From NCBI GenBank assembly GCA_947454705.1, contig CANGKZ010000004.1:62001-126000 (forward strand): a stretch of DNA of 64,000 nucleotides, given 5' to 3'. Numbering within the stretch: the first letter of the stretch is position 1; every line of letters begins with the position of its first letter. The translations under genes were made by a program, and so were the position numbers. A model generated the notes under the pieces. The model was not told the origin of the DNA. It did not search any database and worked only from the letters and a program-made list of their open reading frames with translations. This document shows, one piece after another, positions 19,648 through 29,272 of the stretch. This DNA is from Verrucomicrobiota bacterium. GTDB taxonomy: Bacteria; Verrucomicrobiota; Verrucomicrobiia; Limisphaerales; UBA9464.

Positions 19648-22600
19648 TCAACTGCGGCGCGCCGGCCGCAACTTCGCCGCGAGATCGCTCAGCAGCGTGT
19701 ACACCACCGGGATGATCACGAGGGTGAGGAAGGTGCTGGTCAGCATGCCGCCGACCACGGCGATGCCCATCGGACGCCGACTCTCGGCGCCGGCACCAAA
19801 TCCGATCGCGATCGGAAGAATGCCCGCGATGGTGGCGAAGGCAGTCATGAGGATCGGACGCAACCGGACGCGTCCCGATTCCTCCATGGCCTGACGCGAG
19901 GTCGCTCCGCGTTCGACCTGCTGATTGGCGAAGTCCACGAGCAGAATCGAGTTCTTGGTCACCAGGCCGATCAGCAGCACGAGACCAATCTGGCTGAACA
20001 GATTCAGGTTCATCGCCGGGATCGGCGGGTAGAGCCCCGACTTGCCGCCGAGATCCAGCAGCCACAGCGCCCCGAAGGCGCCGACCGCCGCCAACGGCAG
20101 CGCGAGCATCACGGTCATCGGATGAACCAGGCTCTCGAACTGCGCCGCGAGCGTCATGTAAACGATCGCGCCGGCGAGGATCATCACCCACCAGAATTCA
20201 TTCGATGCATCGGACAAGTTGCGCGCATCGCCCTCCCACGCGTGGAGGAATCCGGCGGGAAGTTCCTGGGCGAGCAACGGCTCCACCTGTTTCACCACCG
20301 TGCCGATGGGCACCGCGCCCGGAGACGCCGTGATGCTGGCCGAACGAAGACGTGCGTAGTGGCTGATCGAATTGGGTGCCGCGCCCTCGCTGCGGGTGAC
20401 CAAGCTGGAGAGCTGGATCAATTCGCCGCGCCCGTTGCGAACGAACACTCGGTCCAGATCCCGCGGCGTGAGACGCGAGGCGCGCTCGAGCTGCGCCATT
20501 ACCTGATACTCCTTGCCGTCCACCTTGATGCGGCTGAGGTCCAGTCCGCCGAAGAGGATCTGCAACGTGCGGGAAATGTCCTCGATGGTAACGCCGAGCG
20601 CGGCGGCACGGTTGCGGTCGATGCCGATGCGTAGCTCGGGTTTGTTCACCTCATAGCTCACACGGACGTTGGTGAGCAGCGGCTTTCCAACCGCATTGGT
20701 CAGGCCGCGGAGGCGGTTGGCGACCGCAGTGGCGGTGGTGTTCAGGGCGTCGAGATCCTGGTTCTGCAGCACCAGTTCAAACGGCGAGCTGTTGAAGCTG
20801 GTTTCGATGGCTTTGGGAAGATTCGCGATGGCGATGCCGCCCTCGACTTCCGCGAAGAAGCGCTGCGCGAGTCCGCCAGGGCCGTTCACGATTTCCTGCG
20901 TGTTCCGTTTGCGGTCCGCCGGATCCTTGAAGCTCACGAACACGATGCCGAGGCTCGATTGACCAGGTCCACCAAAGGCCGGCGCTACAATCGCTCCGAA
21001 GCTCCGCACTTCCGGAATGGAGGCGATGATGGCTTCGGCCTTCTTCAATTGGCGGTCGGTGAATTCCGAGGTGGAGCCGTTCGGCGTGATCACCATGGCG
21101 AACATGCGGCTCTTGTCCTCCTGCGGGAGGAAGTCCTGCTCCAGCGCCCGATATGCCGCCACCATCAGAACCAGCGTACCAAAGGTGATACCCACGATGA
21201 CGATCCGGTGATCCAGCGCCCAGCGCAGCAGTGCCAGGTAGCGACGCGTGAAGGTGTCGAGCATCCACTCGAACAAACGGAAGATTCCCCGAGGTTTCTC
21301 GTGATGCACCGGCTTGAGCCACCGGGCGGCCAGGGCGGGGGAGAGCGTGAGGGCGACAAACGCGGAGATGCCCACCGATCCCGCCACCGCGAGCGCGAAT
21401 TCGACGAACAGGCGTCCGGTGGTGCCCTTGAGGAAGGCCAGCGGGGTGAACACCGCGATCAGCGACAGCGTGATGGCAATGACCGCGAAGCTGATTTCCT
21501 CCATTGCCTTCTGTGCCGCCTGCATCGGGGGCATGCCTTCTTCGATGTGACGGAAGATCGCTTCGAGCACCACGATGGCGTCATCGACCACCACGCCGAT
21601 GCTCAGCACAAGCGCGAGCATGGTGAGGATGTTCACCGAGTATCCGAACGCATGGAGCAGCGCAAAGGTACCGATCAGCGAAACCGGCACCGCGATGGCC
21701 GGGATCAGCGTGGAGCGGAAGTTGCGGAGGAAGACGAAGATGATCAGCACCACGAGTCCGAAGGCGATGGCCAGGGTTTCCCAGACTTCGCTGATGGCCT
21801 TCTCCACGTACACGCTGGCGTCGTAGGACACCGACAATTCCGTGCCTTCGGGAAGCGTGGGGTTGATGGCTTTGACCTCGGCGCGAATCGCCTGGGCGAC
21901 GCTGACGGTGTTGGCCTTGGCCTGCTTCACGACTCCGAGGAAGACGCAGGGTTTGCCCGCGGCGCGCGCGATGGTTCGGTAGTCTTCAACGCCGGCCTCG
22001 GCGCGGCCGATGTCGCGCAGGCGCACCAGCGTGGTGCCTTCGGTGCGGATCACCAGGGCGTTGAATTCCTCCGCGGTCTTCAACTCACCGCGCGTGAGGA
22101 TGGTCATTTCGCGGTCGAGGTTCTCCACCCGGCCGCTGGGGAGTTCGACGTTTTGCTGAGTCAGCGCGCGTTGCACGTCGAGCACGGTCACGCGTCGCGC
22201 CGCCATGCGTTCTGAATCCAGCCACAACCGCATGGCGAAGCGCTTTTCGCCGCCGATGGTGATCGAGGAAACTCCGGGAATGCCCTGGAACCGCGGCTTG
22301 ATCTGCCGCTCCGCCATGGTGGTGAGATCCAGCGGGGAGTAGCGGGAACTGTTCAGCGCCACCCAGATGACCGGCTGCGCATCGGCGTCCTGCTTGGAGA
22401 CGATCGGCTCCCGGATGTCCACCGGCAGCGCACCGCGAACGCGCGACACGCGATCCCGGACGTCCTGCGACGCCACGTCGATGTCGCGCGAGAGATCAAA
22501 TTCGATCGAGATGCTGCTCACGCCTTCGCGGCTTTCCGATCGCAGCGTCTTGATGCCGGAGATGTTGTTGACCGCTTCCTCGAGACGTTCGCTCACCTCG

Positions 22601-22782
22601 GTCTCCACCACCTGCGCATTCGCACCGGGGTAGATGGTGACCACGCTGACCACCGGCGGATCGATGTCCGGCAGCTCGCGCACGGGCAGGCGCGAGAGGC
22701 CGATGACGCCGAACAGGACCAGCGCCAGATTCATCATCGTGGCGAGAATCGGGCGTTGGATGGAAATCTTGGAAAGGAACAT
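19648..22782 (-). CDS. RND efflux permease, AcrB/MdtB-like (HAE-1 type)
   Basis: Encodes 1044 aa, full length for an inner-membrane RND pump that uses proton motive force to export drugs or other small molecules. It opens with FLSKISIQRPILATMMNLALVLFG and DIDPPVVSVVTIYPGA. The proton-relay aspartate pair is in GVVVDDAIVVLE (TM4). FLPQEDKSRMFAMV and a second repeat with SQIGLVLLIGLVTKNSILLVDFANQ are also present. It lies 67 nt downstream of its adaptor on the same strand. No TolC-like outer-membrane gene accompanies them, so the pump probably borrows an outer-membrane channel from elsewhere. Confidence 0.95.
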   Translation of the reverse strand: MFLSKISIQRPILATMMNLALVLFGVIGLSRLPVRELPDIDPPVVSVVTIYPGANAQVVETEVSERLEEAVNNISGIKTLRSESREGVSSISIEFDLSRDIDVASQDVRDRVSRVRGALPVDIREPIVSKQDADAQPVIWVALNSSRYSPLDLTTMAERQIKPRFQGIPGVSSITIGGEKRFAMRLWLDSERMAARRVTVLDVQRALTQQNVELPSGRVENLDREMTILTRGELKTAEEFNALVIRTEGTTLVRLRDIGRAEAGVEDYRTIARAAGKPCVFLGVVKQAKANTVSVAQAIRAEVKAINPTLPEGTELSVSYDASVYVEKAISEVWETLAIAFGLVVLIIFVFLRNFRSTLIPAIAVPVSLIGTFALLHAFGYSVNILTMLALVLSIGVVVDDAIVVLEAIFRHIEEGMPPMQAAQKAMEEISFAVIAITLSLIAVFTPLAFLKGTTGRLFVEFALAVAGSVGISAFVALTLSPALAARWLKPVHHEKPRGIFRLFEWMLDTFTRRYLALLRWALDHRIVIVGITFGTLVLMVAAYRALEQDFLPQEDKSRMFAMVITPNGSTSEFTDRQLKKAEAIIASIPEVRSFGAIVAPAFGGPGQSSLGIVFVSFKDPADRKRNTQEIVNGPGGLAQRFFAEVEGGIAIANLPKAIETSFNSSPFELVLQNQDLDALNTTATAVANRLRGLTNAVGKPLLTNVRVSYEVNKPELRIGIDRNRAAALGVTIEDISRTLQILFGGLDLSRIKVDGKEYQVMAQLERASRLTPRDLDRVFVRNGRGELIQLSSLVTRSEGAAPNSISHYARLRSASITASPGAVPIGTVVKQVEPLLAQELPAGFLHAWEGDARNLSDASNEFWWVMILAGAIVYMTLAAQFESLVHPMTVMLALPLAAVGAFGALWLLDLGGKSGLYPPIPAMNLNLFSQIGLVLLIGLVTKNSILLVDFANQQVERGATSRQAMEESGRVRLRPILMTAFATIAGILPIAIGFGAGAESRRPMGIAVVGGMLTSTFLTLVIIPVVYTLLSDLAAKLRPARRS

Positions 22783-22849
22783 GCGGGGTTCGGGTTCCGG
22801 TCAGCGGGGTTCAGCGGCGTCGAACGGGATTCACGGTCGGCACGATCAC

Positions 22850-23935
22850 TCACTTCGTGTACGGGGCGGTGGCTTCGGCTCCGGCGATTTCCACCGGGGC
22901 ACCGGGTCGCAGTTTCTGGACCCCTTCCACGACCACGCGATCCCCCGAGGTGAGGCCGGAGAGGATTTCCGCGCGGCCGGCGAGCCGCAGGCCCACCTTC
23001 ACGGGCTTCATCTCGGCTTTGTTCTGCGCGTTCACGATGAACACCATCGTGGTGTCGCCGTTGTTCATGATCGCCGGCTCGGGAATCACGAGGGCGAGCT
23101 TCCGCAGTTCGAGGGCGAGATCGAGATTGGCAAACATGCCGCCACGGAGGCGTCCGCCCGGATTGGCAATGCGAGCCTTCACCAACGCAGTGCGGGTGCC
23201 GGCGTCGAGCTGCGGCGAGATGAAATAGACTTCGCCCTTGAACGATTCCCCGGGGAAGGCGGCGACCTTGAATCCAACGGCGAGTCCCACCTGCACCTGG
23301 CTGAGATACCGCTCGGGCACGCTGACCTCGACCTTCACGGTGTCGAGATCCACCAGCGTGGTGATGAGCGTGTTCCGCGAGATGACCTGTCCGGGGCTCA
23401 CCTGACGTGCGCCGGCGATGCCGGAAAACGGCGCCACCACCCGGGCGTCGGACAACAGGCGTCGCTTCAGCTCCACACTCGCCTCGTTGGCTGAGAAGGT
23501 GGCCGAGGCCTGGTCGTAGTCCTGTTGCGAGATCAGCTTGCTCCGGTACAGGTCGGCGGTGCGTTCAAACGAAGTCTTGGCCAGGCGCATGTTGGCATCG
23601 GCTTCGGCGAGCGACGCCGCGAGTTTCGATTCGTCGAGCAGCACGAGGAGCTGGCCCTTCTCGACCCGCTGGCCCTCGTCGAAGCCGATCTGCTTCACCG
23701 GACCGTCGATCTCGCATTTGACGTCGATCATCTCGTTGGGAACGACCGAGCCGACCAGCGACACGGACTCCACCACGGGTTGCTCCTTGGCGGCGACCGC
23801 CACGACGCGCACGGCGAATCCGCCCCCGCCGCCTCCACCGGCTGCAGGGTTCGCCGCCTTGCGGCAGCCGCTGACCGCCGGCCCGATGGCCAGAGCGAGA
23901 ATGGAACTGAGAAGAATCGAAGAAGTAAGGCGCAT
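22850..23935 (-). CDS. RND periplasmic adaptor (membrane fusion) lipoprotein
   Basis: Encodes 361 aa. The signal ends AIGPAVSGC, a lipobox, so the mature protein should be lipid-anchored at Cys-23. After a Gly-rich spacer comes the barrel-sandwich half (SVSLVGSVVPNE; VDVKCEIDGPVKQIGFDEGQ-like), a helical hairpin, then VVAPFSGIAGARQVSPGQVI and a C-terminal beta-barrel/MP domain. ATG 23935 is chosen because it opens the lipoprotein signal; the open frame upstream has no such feature. It is co-transcribed with the permease and divergent from the prepilin gene. Confidence 0.92.
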   Translation of the reverse strand: MRLTSSILLSSILALAIGPAVSGCRKAANPAAGGGGGGGFAVRVVAVAAKEQPVVESVSLVGSVVPNEMIDVKCEIDGPVKQIGFDEGQRVEKGQLLVLLDESKLAASLAEADANMRLAKTSFERTADLYRSKLISQQDYDQASATFSANEASVELKRRLLSDARVVAPFSGIAGARQVSPGQVISRNTLITTLVDLDTVKVEVSVPERYLSQVQVGLAVGFKVAAFPGESFKGEVYFISPQLDAGTRTALVKARIANPGGRLRGGMFANLDLALELRKLALVIPEPAIMNNGDTTMVFIVNAQNKAEMKPVKVGLRLAGRAEILSGLTSGDRVVVEGVQKLRPGAPVEIAGAEATAPYTK

Positions 23936-24093
23936 GACAGGCTCGCTGGTGTGCAGGAGAGTATTCCACCGGGCCGCAACCGGGCGAAGCCTATTTCGAG
24001 CGGTAACATCGAGGTGTCGGCCGCCCCTGGCCTTGCGTCCCGGAAAAAACCGGAGGAGCGTGCTTTCAGCGTCGTTTCTAGCCGCGTCAAAGC

Positions 24094-24855
24094 ATGACTC
24101 TCCCATTTCGAAAGGAGCGGACCTGGCACTTCTCGCGTTCCCAGGCCTTCACCCTGATCGAGCTTCTGGTGGTGATCGCCATCATCGCAATCCTTGCCGG
24201 GCTCCTGCTTCCCCATCTCGCGCAGGCCAAGGAGCGCGCGTATCGCACCCAGTGCGTCAGCAACAACCGCCAGCTCGGCCTCGCCCTGCAGCTCTACGTG
24301 GGCGACAACGCCGACGCCATGCCCTGGCCCAATTGGGAAAACGTATATGGCCCGGGCTGGCTGTATCAACCCACCGGCGGCCATGCCCCGGATCCGTGGA
24401 AAACCAACGAACTGCCCTTCGTGCTGCAGGGCGGTTACTACAAATATCTCGGAGATCGGAAGGTGTATTACTGCCCGTTGGATCGCACCAATCACGTGTC
24501 CTTCGTGAAGCGCGGACAACGCATCTCGAGCTACATCATGAACGGGGCGGTCTGCCATTTCGGTCAGCTCGACAAACCCAAGTACAAGATCTCGATGTTT
24601 AACCCGTCCGCCTACGTGCATTGGGAGCCGGACATCAAGCAATTCGGATCGGTGTGGGATGCCAACCAGGGTCACGACGCCAGCCAGTATCCGAGCCTCG
24701 AGGAGGGAATCGGGCGCCGACACAAGAAGGGCGCGGTCATCACCGGGTTTAGTGGGCAGGTTCACTTTATTCGATTCGAAGATTTTCAACGCGAGCAGAA
24801 CTTCAACAAACCCGGCCTGCTCTGGTGCGTCCCCGACAGCAACAACGGGCAGTGA
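24094..24855 (+). CDS. Prepilin-type (type II pseudopilin-like) protein
   Basis: Encodes 253 aa. The class III signal [19 protein letters not shown] (about residues 18-36) is the prepilin peptidase site followed by the pilin helix. The rest matches the large PVC family of exported prepilin-like proteins: [31 protein letters not shown], a [20 protein letters not shown] segment near the end. These genes are highly amplified in Verrucomicrobiota and Planctomycetes, and their role is mostly unknown. Divergent from the RND adaptor. Confidence 0.88.
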
Positions 24856-25631
24856 GAATCGAAGATCGGAGTTCGGAGATCGCAGATCGAAGAATGTCCC
24901 TCGGTGGAGGGCGTGGTTCCACCCACGCCCCATCTTCATCTGCGGACCCCGCGTGAAGTCGCAGGCCGAAATCAGGGAACAACCGCAGAGACGCGGAGAC
25001 GCAGAGGAGAGAAAATGCGGAGGAGGTGGCAGCTGGAAGATTGGTGATCGAACGGCGCCGCGCGATTGTGGAGTGCGGTGGCAGAGCGGAGCGTCGACAC
25101 CGCTTTCGAAACCGTCCGTGGTATGGCACCGACCGGAACCATCGCATCAATGTGCAAAACCTCCCCGAATCCGCTCAGCGTCTCCGCGCCTCTGCGGTTC
25201 ATTTGCCCTGCAGCGCTTTCTGCGTTGCGATGCGGTGGTTCGCTTCTAAGTGAGGCGCGCGACTGATTGGGGCGCGGGTGGAACCGCGCCCTCCACGCCG
25301 TATTTGATCCATGCGCTTGGATGGCCGGTCCGCTCGGGAATTCCCCCAACCCGACGTTCAGTGGCGTTTGCCACGGTGCGGGCGTCGTACGCGTTTCAAA
25401 TCCGTGTTCATCCCGTGTCGATCTCTGGTTTCACGCTCTGGATTTTGGTTGAACGGATTCGGGAGGGGCATTGTCTGCGGATATAAGTGGCCGTCGAATC
25501 GCAGGAACACGCCGCTTAAACTCGCAGTCGGTATTTCGGAGCTGTTCGGAGTCCAGGGGCCCTTCCCCTGGGGTTCGTCGGACGCCCATTCCAAGGAGCC
25601 ATCCACCGCGTCGCACTTCCTTCCCCACCCC
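24856..25631. repeat. 776-bp gene-free spacer with nested inverted repeats
   Basis: The outer inverted pair is 24904-24931 (GGTGGAGGGCGTGGTTCCAC, then CCACGCCC) and 25269-25299. The inner pair is 24981-25020 (AACCGCAGAGACGCGGAGAC...) and 25171-25201 (ending CGCGCCTCTGCGGTTC). A degenerate GATCG-rich repeat occupies 24846-24892. Open frames across this region have no recognisable protein features. The promoter of the BchE-like gene probably lies in 25300-25631, but no consensus elements are assigned. Confidence 0.65.
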
Positions 25632-27203
25632 ATGAAAATCACGCTTGTAAACCCTCCGCACACCGCGATTGGGAGCCGCATTCCACGGGAGCATTTGCCT
25701 CCGCTCGGGTTGTTGAGTGTCGGGGGGCCGCTGATCGATGCCGGGCATTCCGTGTCGCTGCTGGATGCCGAACTCGGTCCGCTGGGCCTGGATGAAATCG
25801 TGACGCGGCTGGCGTCGGATCCACCGGAAGTGGTGATGATCGGTCACTCGGGTTCGAGTTCAGTGCATGCCACCGTGGTGGACCTGTGCGCGCGGATCAA
25901 GGTGCGGATGCCCGCGGTGATCATCGTCTATGGCGGTGTGTATCCAACCTATTGCTGGAGGGAGATTCTCACCGAATGCCCGGCGGTTGACCTCATCGTC
26001 CGCGGTGAGGGCGAACGCACCACGGTTCGCCTGATGGAAACCGTTGCGCGGGGAGGCGACCTCGGACGCGTGGAGGGGATTGCGTACCGGAGTGATGGAC
26101 GCGTGGTCGGAACGGCACAGGCTCCGATGATTCGCGATCTCGATGAATTCCGCGTGGGGTGGGAGTTGATCGATCACCGGGACTATTCGTACTGGGGAGG
26201 CAAGCGCGCGGTGGTGGTGCAGTTTTCGCGCGGATGTCCGTATCAGTGCAGCTACTGCGGTCAGCGCGGATTCTGGACCCAGCGTCGTCACCGGGATCCA
26301 GTGCGCTTCGCTAGGGTGCTGGCTCGGCTGCATCGGGAGCACGGGGTGGAGTTGATCAACTTCGCCGATGAACTTCCCACCGGATCGCCCGCAGCGTGGA
26401 AGGCGTTTCTCGAAGCGTTGATCTCAGAGAATGTTCCCCTCTTGCTCGTGGGTTCCACCCGGGCCGGCGACATCGTCCGCGATCGCGACATCCTCCACCT
26501 GTACCGTCGCGCAGGGGTGATTCGATTCCTGCTTGGGATTGAGAGCTACAACGAGGACACCCTGCACACGATCCGCAAGGGGGGCACGCCGAGTCAGGAT
26601 CAGCTGGCGATCCAATTGCTGCGGGAGCATGGGATCGTCTCGATGGCGACCTACGTGGTGGGCTTCAACGAGGAGCGGGACCGGGACTATTGGACCTCGT
26701 ATCGCCACCTGCTGCGTTATGACCCGGACCAGGTGCAGTTGCTCTACGCGACGCCGCATCGGTGGACTCCGTTCTATGACACGGTGAAGGATCGCCGGGT
26801 GATCCAGACCGACACGCGTCGATGGGATTACAAACACCAGGTGCTGGCGACGCGCGGCGTTCCGTCGTGGCGGGTGTTTCTGTGGTTCAAGTGCATGGAG
26901 GTCTTGATGCAGATGCGTCCCCGCGTGGTGAAACGAATGCTGTTCCATCGGGATCCGGACTTCCGTCACGCAATGCGTTGGTACACGCGCATTGGCCGAC
27001 GCGTGTGGTTTCACGAGGTGTTCGAGTTCCTCTTCCAGACCCGCCATTTGAAGCACGGTCCGACCCTGGGGGAATTCCTCGGCGCCTCGCTGTCGTCGGA
27101 GGAGTACGCGCTCAAGCGTCCCGCGAATGCGTTGAAACTCGCTCTCTTTCCCTCGCGGGATGCGCGGGAGTTGGACGAGGCCCCGGTGCAGCGGGCCGCC
27201 TGA
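25632..27203 (+). CDS. B12-binding radical SAM protein, BchE-like
   Basis: Encodes 523 aa. An N-terminal cobalamin-binding-like Rossmann domain (about residues 1-140; PPHTAIGSRIPREHLPPLGLL, VVMIGHSGSS) precedes a radical SAM core with SRGCPYQCSYCGQRGFW (C202, C206, C209 bind the 4Fe-4S cluster). Several long stretches match, from memory, BchE, the anaerobic Mg-protoporphyrin IX monomethyl ester cyclase: HREHGVELINFADE, LLVGSTRAGDIVRD, YDPDQVQLLYATPHRWTP, WDYKHQVLATR and RRVWFHEVFEFLF. No chlorophyll genes are in the window. It may be a true BchE or a related porphyrin or other ring-forming enzyme. ATG 25632 chosen as it opens KITLVNPPH. Confidence 0.85.
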   Translation: MKITLVNPPHTAIGSRIPREHLPPLGLLSVGGPLIDAGHSVSLLDAELGPLGLDEIVTRLASDPPEVVMIGHSGSSSVHATVVDLCARIKVRMPAVIIVYGGVYPTYCWREILTECPAVDLIVRGEGERTTVRLMETVARGGDLGRVEGIAYRSDGRVVGTAQAPMIRDLDEFRVGWELIDHRDYSYWGGKRAVVVQFSRGCPYQCSYCGQRGFWTQRRHRDPVRFARVLARLHREHGVELINFADELPTGSPAAWKAFLEALISENVPLLLVGSTRAGDIVRDRDILHLYRRAGVIRFLLGIESYNEDTLHTIRKGGTPSQDQLAIQLLREHGIVSMATYVVGFNEERDRDYWTSYRHLLRYDPDQVQLLYATPHRWTPFYDTVKDRRVIQTDTRRWDYKHQVLATRGVPSWRVFLWFKCMEVLMQMRPRVVKRMLFHRDPDFRHAMRWYTRIGRRVWFHEVFEFLFQTRHLKHGPTLGEFLGASLSSEEYALKRPANALKLALFPSRDARELDEAPVQRAA

Positions 27204-27274
27204 AGCAGACGCGCGCAACGCGGGTTTTTCCTCGACCGTCCCCCGGGTTTTCGCTGAGTAAATGGGCCTCACAA

Positions 27275-29272
27275 TTGGAGGAAGAAACGTCCATCCCGGT
27301 TGAAGACCACAGCGGGCCAAGCCTCTGGCGCCTGCTCTGGCCGGCACTGCTGCCCGTGGTGCTGGTGGCAATCTTCTTTGCCGTGGCTCCCGCGTGGCTG
27401 AATCGGCGGCTCCAGACAAATGCACTGGAACGACGGGCGAATCAGACGGCGGAACGAATCGAAGCCATCCGAGGGTTGGATTACGAGGCCATTGGAAACG
27501 GGGACAATCCCCGGCAGCTCCAGATTCGACAGGCCCTGCAGGCGCGCGGGATTCCCCGGCGTTTTGCGAATCTACGCATCGGATTTGGTGTTTCGTTGGG
27601 GCTGCTGGCGTTGATGGGAGGGGCGCTGCTCTGGATGCATCGCTTGCAACGCCAGGCCGCGGAATCCAACACCGACCTGATCCGGAACTATCGTCGCGGA
27701 TGGAATCTCGCCATTGGCGTGGGAGTGGTGAACTTGGTGTTTCTCACGCCGTTGATTGTCTATGCGATGGATCAGTTCGGGCGGCTGTTGGTCGGTCGGC
27801 CGTCGGGCTGGTTGGAATTTGCCGCGGCGAGTGGAGGGGTGATGTCGCTCTGGCGATGCGGATGGATCCTCGCCCGTCGCGTGCCGTTGGAATCGGACGA
27901 ACGATTCGTCCGCAAGGTGACGCCCGAGGAGTGTCCGAAATTGTGGGCAGTGGTGAGGGAGTGCGCCGCGAAACTGGGGACCACGCCGCCGGACAACCTT
28001 TTGATCGGAATCCAGCCCACGTTCTACGTCAGCGAATTCCTGATCCGGTTTGGGGAGCATCAGGTGGTCCAGGGGCGCACCCTGTTCCTATCATCGTCCA
28101 TGCTCCGGCAGCTGAGTGCGGAGGAAGTGATTGCGGTGATTGGTCACGAGTTGGGACATTTCATCGGGGCGGATACCCAGCTGACGCGTGAGTTTTATCC
28201 GCTGCGTTACAAGGCGCTGCAGACCGCCGATGCCTTGGAAAACGGCAAGTGGTGGACGCGCTCCAGTTTTCAGTTGGTGCTGATCTTTCTTTGGAATTTC
28301 GGGCACGTCGAACGACGGGTCTCCCGGGCTCGGGAATTGCGGGCGGATCTGAAGTCGGCGGAGCTCGCATCGAAGGAGATTGCGGCGCGATCCCTGGTGC
28401 GGATTCACGTCCTGGTGGACGCCTTCAATCGACGGATCTCCGACGCCATCCGGGGCGAGCAAACCGGAATGTTGCACGCTCCGTTGTCCGAATACGTGTC
28501 GAAGCGGCTTGGCGAGGAAAAGCAATTCTGGACCGATCTCCTTCAGGCTCGGATGGCTCATCCACTGGATACGCATCCCACGCTTTACGAGCGGCTGACC
28601 GCACTGGGATCGAGCTTCACCCGCGATCAAGCCCTCGAGGCGGCGAGCATGCCGGTCGTTTCCGCGTGGGACAGCTGGATGGGCGAGTGCGATTCCGTTC
28701 TCGAGGAGGCGGAGAAGGAGTTTGATGAATTCTTCACCGGATTGCGCAAACAGACGCAGCTGGATTCTGCCGATGCATCGACCGAAGAGGGCCGGGTGAC
28801 GCTCGAAAAGCACTTTCCCGAAGTGGTGTTTCAGACCCGCTGGGGGCATTCGATCATCTCCGGACTCGCGGTGCTTCTGCTCTCGTTGCCCCTGATTCTT
28901 GTGGTCGCCTTGGCGTCGATTCCGGCCAAGGAATATGCTGTCGCGTTTCTCGGCCTTTCAGTCCTCGGGTTGGGTGTGTTCGTGGCATTGAAATCAAAGC
29001 GCGGCGTCCTCCGCCTTCATTCGGGCGGCTTGGCGTGCAGTGGGTGGAATCGCGAACTCTCGTTTCAGGAGGTCGAGCAAATGAACGCCACAGAATCGAT
29101 GGGAGCCGTCACGCTCCGAGCTCACCTAAGGAAGAAGCAACGACCGTTCTCCCGTTTTTCGCTCCTGCCGATCCCGCGACGAACTGTATCGATTTCGATC
29201 AGCCGGTATCGGGGCGAGGCTCCGAAAATCCTGGAACAAATCTACCGCTACTACCTCCGGCGCGCGGAGTAG
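27275..29272 (+). CDS. M48 family membrane zinc metallopeptidase
   Basis: Encodes 665 aa from the proposed TTG. An N-terminal helix (LLWPALLPVVLVAIFFAVAPAW) and two more near residues 110 and 150 precede the peptidase domain. Its zinc site is VIGHELGHFIGAD (H291, E292, H295), with a distal RELRADLKSAE supplying the third ligand (Glu) in the usual M48 manner. Two further helices follow near residue 530 (ISGLAVLLLSLPLILVVAL) and a basic C-terminal domain. No ATG or GTG lies in frame between the upstream stop and the first membrane helix, so TTG 27275 (or CTG 27254) is inferred. It follows the BchE-like gene by 71 nt. Substrate unknown. Confidence 0.8.
   Translation: MEEETSIPVEDHSGPSLWRLLWPALLPVVLVAIFFAVAPAWLNRRLQTNALERRANQTAERIEAIRGLDYEAIGNGDNPRQLQIRQALQARGIPRRFANLRIGFGVSLGLLALMGGALLWMHRLQRQAAESNTDLIRNYRRGWNLAIGVGVVNLVFLTPLIVYAMDQFGRLLVGRPSGWLEFAAASGGVMSLWRCGWILARRVPLESDERFVRKVTPEECPKLWAVVRECAAKLGTTPPDNLLIGIQPTFYVSEFLIRFGEHQVVQGRTLFLSSSMLRQLSAEEVIAVIGHELGHFIGADTQLTREFYPLRYKALQTADALENGKWWTRSSFQLVLIFLWNFGHVERRVSRARELRADLKSAELASKEIAARSLVRIHVLVDAFNRRISDAIRGEQTGMLHAPLSEYVSKRLGEEKQFWTDLLQARMAHPLDTHPTLYERLTALGSSFTRDQALEAASMPVVSAWDSWMGECDSVLEEAEKEFDEFFTGLRKQTQLDSADASTEEGRVTLEKHFPEVVFQTRWGHSIISGLAVLLLSLPLILVVALASIPAKEYAVAFLGLSVLGLGVFVALKSKRGVLRLHSGGLACSGWNRELSFQEVEQMNATESMGAVTLRAHLRKKQRPFSRFSLLPIPRRTVSISISRYRGEAPKILEQIYRYYLRRAE

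Follow-up and report, generated by a model that had tools for sequence, protein, structure and literature searches.

A BchE-like cobalamin-dependent radical SAM protein of a Verrucomicrobiota bacterium falls in a clade outside the chlorophyll cyclases

What might a relative of the chlorophyll cyclase BchE be doing in verrucomicrobial DNA without photosynthesis genes nearby? BchE is an O2-independent cyclase that acts on a porphyrin, and it is no methylase. In the stretch analysed here (64,000 nucleotides; hereafter the window), Pfam scanning of 17 proteins, a subset of the ORFs, finds no bch, puf or puh gene. This agrees with the original prediction, which had drawn attention to a BchE homologue and proposed that it marks a phototroph with a dispersed pathway, is a relic, or is a cyclase repurposed for another tetrapyrrole or ring system. 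We put the probability at roughly 0.8 that the protein is a functional stand-alone enzyme of the cobalamin-dependent radical SAM type, that it was gained laterally and belongs to a clade here called group A, and that its substrate is not Mg-protoporphyrin monomethyl ester. The sequence-based part of this explanation is made up of the cobalamin domain, the radical SAM core with its CX3CX2C motif, the clade placement, the absence of the chlorophyll genes tested and the signature of purifying selection.

Domains, fold and possible chemistry

The gene (25632-27203, forward strand, as are all its features below) encodes 523 residues with no internal stop. The frame could be extended upstream to 25311, and the Met at 25632 coincides with the start of the aligned related proteins. 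All five motifs quoted in the original prediction are found in its translation. An N-terminal cobalamin-binding domain (residues 22-133, 25695-26030; PF02310, 61.1 bits) precedes a radical SAM domain (residues 197-357, 26220-26702; PF04055, 66.9 bits), within which lies the CX3CX2C motif C202/C206/C209 (26235-26258). In radical SAM enzymes this triad binds a [4Fe-4S] cluster. Among the curated NCBIfam families, the BchE equivalog TIGR02026 matches best, with 516.3 bits against a cut-off of 481.35 and over model positions 1-497 of 497, which by sequence is far beyond chance and upholds the homology originally claimed. The second-best family, the hopanoid C-3 methylase HpnR (TIGR04367), is likewise cobalamin-dependent radical SAM, but the window protein reaches only 134.7 of the required 650 bits; HpnJ follows with 80.1 of 577.6, and the remaining families listed score far under their respective cut-offs. 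We also looked for a better match to another characterised radical SAM family, the observation by which the original prediction was prepared to fall; there is none, because the best curated match is BchE.

The nearest sequences with a solved structure are distant radical SAM enzymes (top score 37.8 bits). An AlphaFold2 model built on a 40-row alignment (mean pLDDT 85.2) has CysS, TsrM, OxsB, AprD4, TokK and MgmA as its top PDB matches in Foldseek (best E-values 9e-20 to 3e-16). These proteins share the overall fold but are only 14-21% identical and act on other substrates; the TsrM, OxsB and TokK structures are cobalamin-bound, in keeping with the PF02310 match.

How might such a protein act? 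We envision that a [4Fe-4S] cluster held by C202, C206 and C209 would cleave SAM to a 5'-deoxyadenosyl radical, and that this radical might take a hydrogen from a large hydrophobic substrate, presumably one other than Mg-protoporphyrin monomethyl ester. The cobalamin of the N-terminal domain would assist, either donating a methyl group or serving as redox partner in an oxidation that needs no O2 (a hydroxylation or the closing of a ring, as BchE performs). By analogy with BchE, which is the nearest characterised relative and no methylase, we lean slightly towards oxidation. Methyl transfer by a cobalamin-dependent radical SAM enzyme, which could go with either of the substrate classes considered below, would be in line with PMC13142503, where methylation is the predominant association of these enzymes, and with the presence of CysS, TsrM, TokK and MgmA among the top structural neighbours. 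The fold is, however, uninformative on reaction type, as OxsB and AprD4 match too, and BchE remains the closest characterised relative in sequence, so that we regard methylation as rather unlikely. For the expression of BchE itself, a C-terminal MBP tag has been of help (PMC13142503).

A clade beside BchE

The reference for BchE consisted of five annotated BchE/ChlE proteins from plasmid records (Thiodictyon, Roseinatronobacter, Skermanella, Rhodobacteraceae bacterium SC52 and Pseudanabaena). To these the window protein is 29-31% identical; identity to BchE across group A is 26-33%, and within group A it is 49-85%. TIGR02026 scores of two of the five, 756.3 bits for Pseudanabaena ChlE and 816.2 bits for Thiodictyon BchE, lie well above the 516.3 bits of the window protein, and other group A members so scored range from 477.7 to 669.3 bits. 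In four of the five reference loci bchJ adjoins or lies near bchE, the exception being Pseudanabaena, whereas neither bchJ nor a photosynthesis cluster stands beside the window gene. It is flanked downstream by an ORF with an M48 peptidase domain (26822-29272, forward strand; PF01435), as predicted, the real start of which is probably past 27203, and upstream by a gene for a pilin-like protein with an N-methylation motif and a DUF1559 domain (24094-24855, forward strand; Pfam). Nothing ties either neighbour to the group A system. The large repeat-rich spacer described originally was not recovered: Tandem Repeats Finder, which reports tandem repeats only, lists no more than seven arrays over the window, all short, of which one (24858-24893) lies between the pilin-like gene and the group A gene.

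Residue conservation was compared in an alignment of 33 group A, four group B (the closest relatives of BchE, described below) and five BchE sequences, a position counting as fixed at 94% or more in group A and when complete in group B and BchE. By this measure, 43 window positions are identical across the three groups, among them C202, C206, C209, A245-D246-E247, P249, R277, D280-I281, R283-D284 and T374-P375. A further 44 positions are fixed in group A (at least 94% of 33) and fixed otherwise in BchE (5/5), several of them clustered, as in NWPP/HLPP, TPWPF/TPHRW and YNFV.P/WDYKHQ (group A/BchE), so that the residues fixed among BchEs outside the common core are not those of group A. Another 39 positions are common to group B and BchE and absent from group A. 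Group A also has an extra helical insert (residues 412-438, 26865-26945), which lies mostly opposite a gap in BchE and group B; it is hydrophobic and forms helices H412-427 and H430-438 in the AlphaFold2 model. Judging from these comparisons, the catalytic core is maintained in group A while other fixed positions differ. Group A thus resembles BchE in domain order, CX3CX2C motif and common core, and passes its curated cut-off, but is only about 30% identical to it and differs in its separate clade and in its insert.

Is the gene still in use? Group A alignments contain 103 invariant columns at 27 rows and 113 at 40 rows, and the group appears strongly conserved. Divergence between the window gene and its Steroidobacter counterpart amounts to 0.231 at first, 0.155 at second and 0.534 at third codon positions, a clear indication of purifying selection on the gene. 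The proposal of a relic, left without function when a photosynthesis cluster was lost, could draw on the solitary position of the gene and on the failure to find it elsewhere in the host's family (34 other genomes, not all complete). The intact frame, the retained catalytic residues, the concentration of change at third codon positions, the 73% identity to homologues of other phyla and the absence of chlorophyll remnants from the searches made all speak against it, and we consider it highly improbable.

The main tree was built from 14 of the 33 group A rows, four of group B, five BchE/ChlE proteins and 12 further sequences to which the BchE model has a match. Group A, group B and BchE each form a clade with 100/100 support; group B joins BchE at 97/95, and the three together stand apart from the 12 others at 100/99. 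A topology forcing group A together with BchE to the exclusion of group B was rejected (p-AU 0.0165). A larger tree of 55 rows, 33 of them group A and one a wrong ORF on a very long branch (L146, Kovacikia), returned the same groups (A 100/99, BchE 100/99, B 100/100, B with BchE 96/93, the 12 others 100/99). Group A is an uncharacterised sister clade to BchE plus group B in these trees. The phylogeny that the original prediction had called for consequently bears out kinship with BchE and places the protein outside the BchE clade, and the BchE label on it is misleading. Of the three original readings, the repurposed cyclase fits best, except that it presupposes a direction of change from BchE, whereas the clade lies beside BchE and group B. 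The stem of group A is long (2.12 changes per column in the main tree), which is compatible with a change of function and can also be a model effect. In both trees the window protein is nested among sequences of Steroidobacter, Pseudomonas and Chloroflexota, away from other verrucomicrobial group A proteins. In the larger tree the group A protein of a metagenome-assembled genome titled Bordetella parapertussis (L118) pairs with an Allocoleopsis plasmid protein (100/100); the bin name or the contig assignment may be wrong.

How far does group A extend? A tblastn scan of species-level genomes (E<=1e-3) found at least 580 stretches encoding a relative. The best 80 of these (57-73% identity) were kept and inspected and constitute group A as used here, the remaining stretches perhaps belonging partly to other groups. 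The 80 come from Steroidobacter, Pseudomonas, Undibacterium, Lysobacter, Stenotrophomonas, Rhizobium, Mesorhizobium, Bradyrhizobium, Methylobacterium, Chloroflexota, Hydrogenedentota and others, and among them identity to the window protein reaches 73% (Steroidobacter, Pseudomonas, Bradyrhizobium and other proteins). Plasmid proteins of Allocoleopsis and Sphingobium are 58% identical to it. By these counts the clade looks large. In the host's class, the BchE model matches at E<=1e-80 in six of 384 genomes, three with group A (the host included) and three with group B; a second sample of 58 genomes, overlapping the first, added one genome of each. Viral contigs gave 43 pattern matches, none of them a relative. 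A literature search that covered few subscription journals found no account of the clade and no function for group A, nor did the literature searched describe the clade structure or the link between BchE, group B and CcsA discussed below.

Chlorophyll genes and the origin of the gene

Could the protein nevertheless serve chlorophyll synthesis as BchE in this host? This reading has in its favour a TIGR02026 score above the equivalog cut-off and the annotation of the Allocoleopsis homologue as bchE. The host assembly (5.4 Mb, 95.7% complete, 0.75% contamination; the contig that contains the window measures 246 kb) was searched for four markers, bchL, bchM, BchH and Photo_RC. Neither bchL nor bchM scores over its cut-off, in searches that each put one of 14 control genomes over. 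PufL/M (Photo_RC) has no match in the host, while the same search is positive in Synechococcus and in three genomes with bchL. The BchH model matches two pieces, of 283 and 268 bits against a cut-off of 829; because it exceeds this cut-off in three of the 14 control genomes, the model is not chlorophyll-specific. Both pieces, which lie on two small contigs (L120 on G000:C79, L121 on G000:C73), are of the CobN/Mg-chelatase family by Pfam. They may be parts of one CobN-like protein, which is probably not a Mg-chelatase subunit. By eye, these pieces have a hydrophobic stretch near the start and a membrane-anchor-like C-terminus. The genome search suggested originally thus found none of these chlorophyll genes over cut-off, and a phototroph with a dispersed pathway receives no support from a genome of this completeness. 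Together with the position of the window protein outside the BchE clade, its lower score and the missing bchJ, these results leave the chlorophyll-cyclase reading strongly disfavoured, with a probability close to nil.

The host has no cobJ match at E<=1e-40, and presumably it therefore imports its cobalamin. In none of the 34 other genomes of its family (some incomplete) was a BchE-like gene found, the best BchE-model match among them being E 1.2e-35. Because of this absence and the nesting of the window protein with foreign sequences, lateral gain is likely and would be the simplest account of the gene. Its GC content (62.4%) equals that of the window (62.2%), so that by this measure of composition the import was not recent.

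Among 49 genomes of group A loci, bchL exceeds its cut-off in three (loci L063, L090 and L108; genomes G443, G457 and G465). These also have PufL/M-type matches, and at E<=1e-35 the BchE model matches nothing in them but the group A protein. AcsF is presumably the cyclase there; conceivably, the group A protein may take this role. A Chloroflexaceae metagenome bin (G429) holds, besides group A, a photosynthetic-type BchE on another contig (L137/L140, G429:C923). The latter is 67-73% identical to Thiodictyon BchE and is split over two adjacent frames, for which sequencing error and decay are indistinguishable; this bin has no bchL over cut-off and no Photo_RC match, perhaps owing to incomplete assembly. 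By these counts most occurrences of group A are in genomes that lack bchL over cut-off, and one bin has it together with a photosynthetic-type BchE. As the hosts of group A mostly make no chlorophyll, a role other than chlorophyll cyclase is very probable.

According to PMC4500134, BchE is confined to photosynthetic bacteria, and no cyclase phenotype appeared when three candidate homologues of BchE in Synechocystis 6803 were mutated. A chlorophyll-enzyme name in the nonphotosynthetic genome of Paraflavitalea (PMC10750312) and chlorophyll orthologies in nonphotosynthetic genomes, sometimes with thousands of hits (PMC8262859), are likewise described. Because such names (PMC8262859) and the Synechocystis candidates (PMC4500134) are already in print, the surprise is moderate. 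Since the equivalog model names members of group A chlorophyll cyclases, genomes of heterotrophs may be misread as partly photosynthetic.

Neighbouring genes and candidate substrates

What, then, might group A act on? Within the preferred reading, a stand-alone group A enzyme, we tentatively rank an isoprenoid-type lipid and a tetrapyrrole or corrinoid as equals, with some other compound slightly less probable than either. ORF clustering over 80 loci, which missed the BchE-like ORF in ten and shortened it in some others, showed mainly genus-level synteny around group A: the widest near-neighbour clusters span three genus labels, and no single neighbour recurs in distant genera over most of the loci. 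Neighbours outside the host genome hint weakly at isoprenoids or corrinoids.

The isoprenoid version holds that group A modifies a polyprenyl or terpenoid lipid. In 17 of the 80 loci, a membrane protein, a winged-helix regulator and a second cis-prenyltransferase of the PRK14839 type are encoded directly upstream of group A. This enzyme (E<=1e-90) occurs in nine of 54 group A genomes (eight over the cut-off) and in none of 26 genomes without group A, a contrast set that is of the class of G443 and includes many small genomes. A Hydrogenedentota genome has a similar trio on a contig other than that of group A. Genes resembling that for linalool dehydratase/isomerase (Ldi; PF18566) lie downstream of group A in two other Verrucomicrobiota: in G067 group A is followed by the same kinds of membrane protein and regulator and by two Ldi-like genes, and in G049 an Ldi-like gene overlaps the end of group A. 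The hydrophobic helical insert would also suit a lipid substrate. Against this stands the origin of the 17 loci (14 Bradyrhizobium, two Methylobacterium and one Hyphomicrobiales bin), which makes them nearly one lineage, while 45 of the 54 group A genomes lack the PRK14839-type enzyme. The Ldi-like matches are weak (24.7, 32.2 and 22.7 bits against 26.1), there is none in G269, the third other verrucomicrobial genome with group A, and Ldi-like genes also occur in two genomes of the host's genus without detected group A. The host itself has neither a PRK14839-type enzyme nor an Ldi-like gene. Taken as a whole, an isoprenoid substrate is a lead on the unlikely side.

A tetrapyrrole or corrinoid, for instance a porphyrin of the haem pathway or a corrinoid to be salvaged, is equally tentative. 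The substrate of BchE is a porphyrin, and its sister, group B, has a gene partner that points to haem (see below). In Pseudomonas sp. A-1, group A and cobJ are arranged tail to tail, 0.3 kb apart. In Labrenzia it comes after two genes on its own strand that look by eye like cobA and cobB, cobJ being 1.8 kb away, and in the bin of L050 the distance to cobJ is 6.5 kb; cob genes other than cobJ in the Labrenzia and Pseudomonas loci were named by eye. Only three of the 80 loci, however, have cob genes within 10 kb, some flanks being shorter than that, and no cobalamin riboswitch was found in 18 group A loci (with short flanks) or in the window, a loose motif scan giving scattered matches with one or two mismatches. 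The Labrenzia and Pseudomonas loci led us to weigh a CobG-like step in B12 synthesis as a general role. We rejected it: of 53 group A genomes only 24 have cobJ over its cut-off, and no match was found in the host, so that group A is no obligatory step of corrin synthesis. Because the host lacks the cis-prenyltransferase, the Ldi-like gene and cobJ, both substrate leads fail in the very genome of the window.

Group B, found here, comprises four loci of the host's order and three families (L003, L033, L034 and L035; genomes G045, G357, G337 and G278). It shares with group A the superclade (100/99) and the catalytic motifs, but groups with BchE, has the 39 BchE positions that group A lacks and is part of a conserved gene pair. 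In all four loci there is an overlap of 1-4 bases between its gene and the stop codon of a CcsA-like gene for cytochrome c assembly, the CcsA-like domain having been checked on L003 alone (PF01578, 112.9 bits). This overlap suggests haem as the putative substrate of group B and keeps a tetrapyrrole among the candidates for group A. We speculate, with less than even odds by a wide measure, that groups A and B are two unrecognised O2-independent families bracketing BchE, the former modifying a membrane isoprenoid or a tetrapyrrole in heterotrophs and the latter haem, together with the CcsA-like protein. If true, BchE would be a late recruit from a family already present in non-photosynthetic metabolism, with a bearing on the origin of the fifth ring of chlorophyll. 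New cobalamin-dependent radical chemistry can be sought in group A, a defined set of proteins that also lends itself to rooting the evolutionary history of BchE, and the haem-linked sister of BchE is perhaps the more interesting object.

Two minor observations concern neighbouring genes. A small membrane protein and an HTH_34-type winged-helix regulator recur as a pair in L071 and 16 other loci and in L153, L162 and L165 (named by eye in L162 and L165); the pair stands beside the second cis-prenyltransferase or has Ldi-like genes nearby, whether group A is present or not. In the window, positions 19648-24106 on the reverse strand appear by eye to encode an RND-type efflux pump (1044 residues) adjoining a membrane fusion protein (418 residues).
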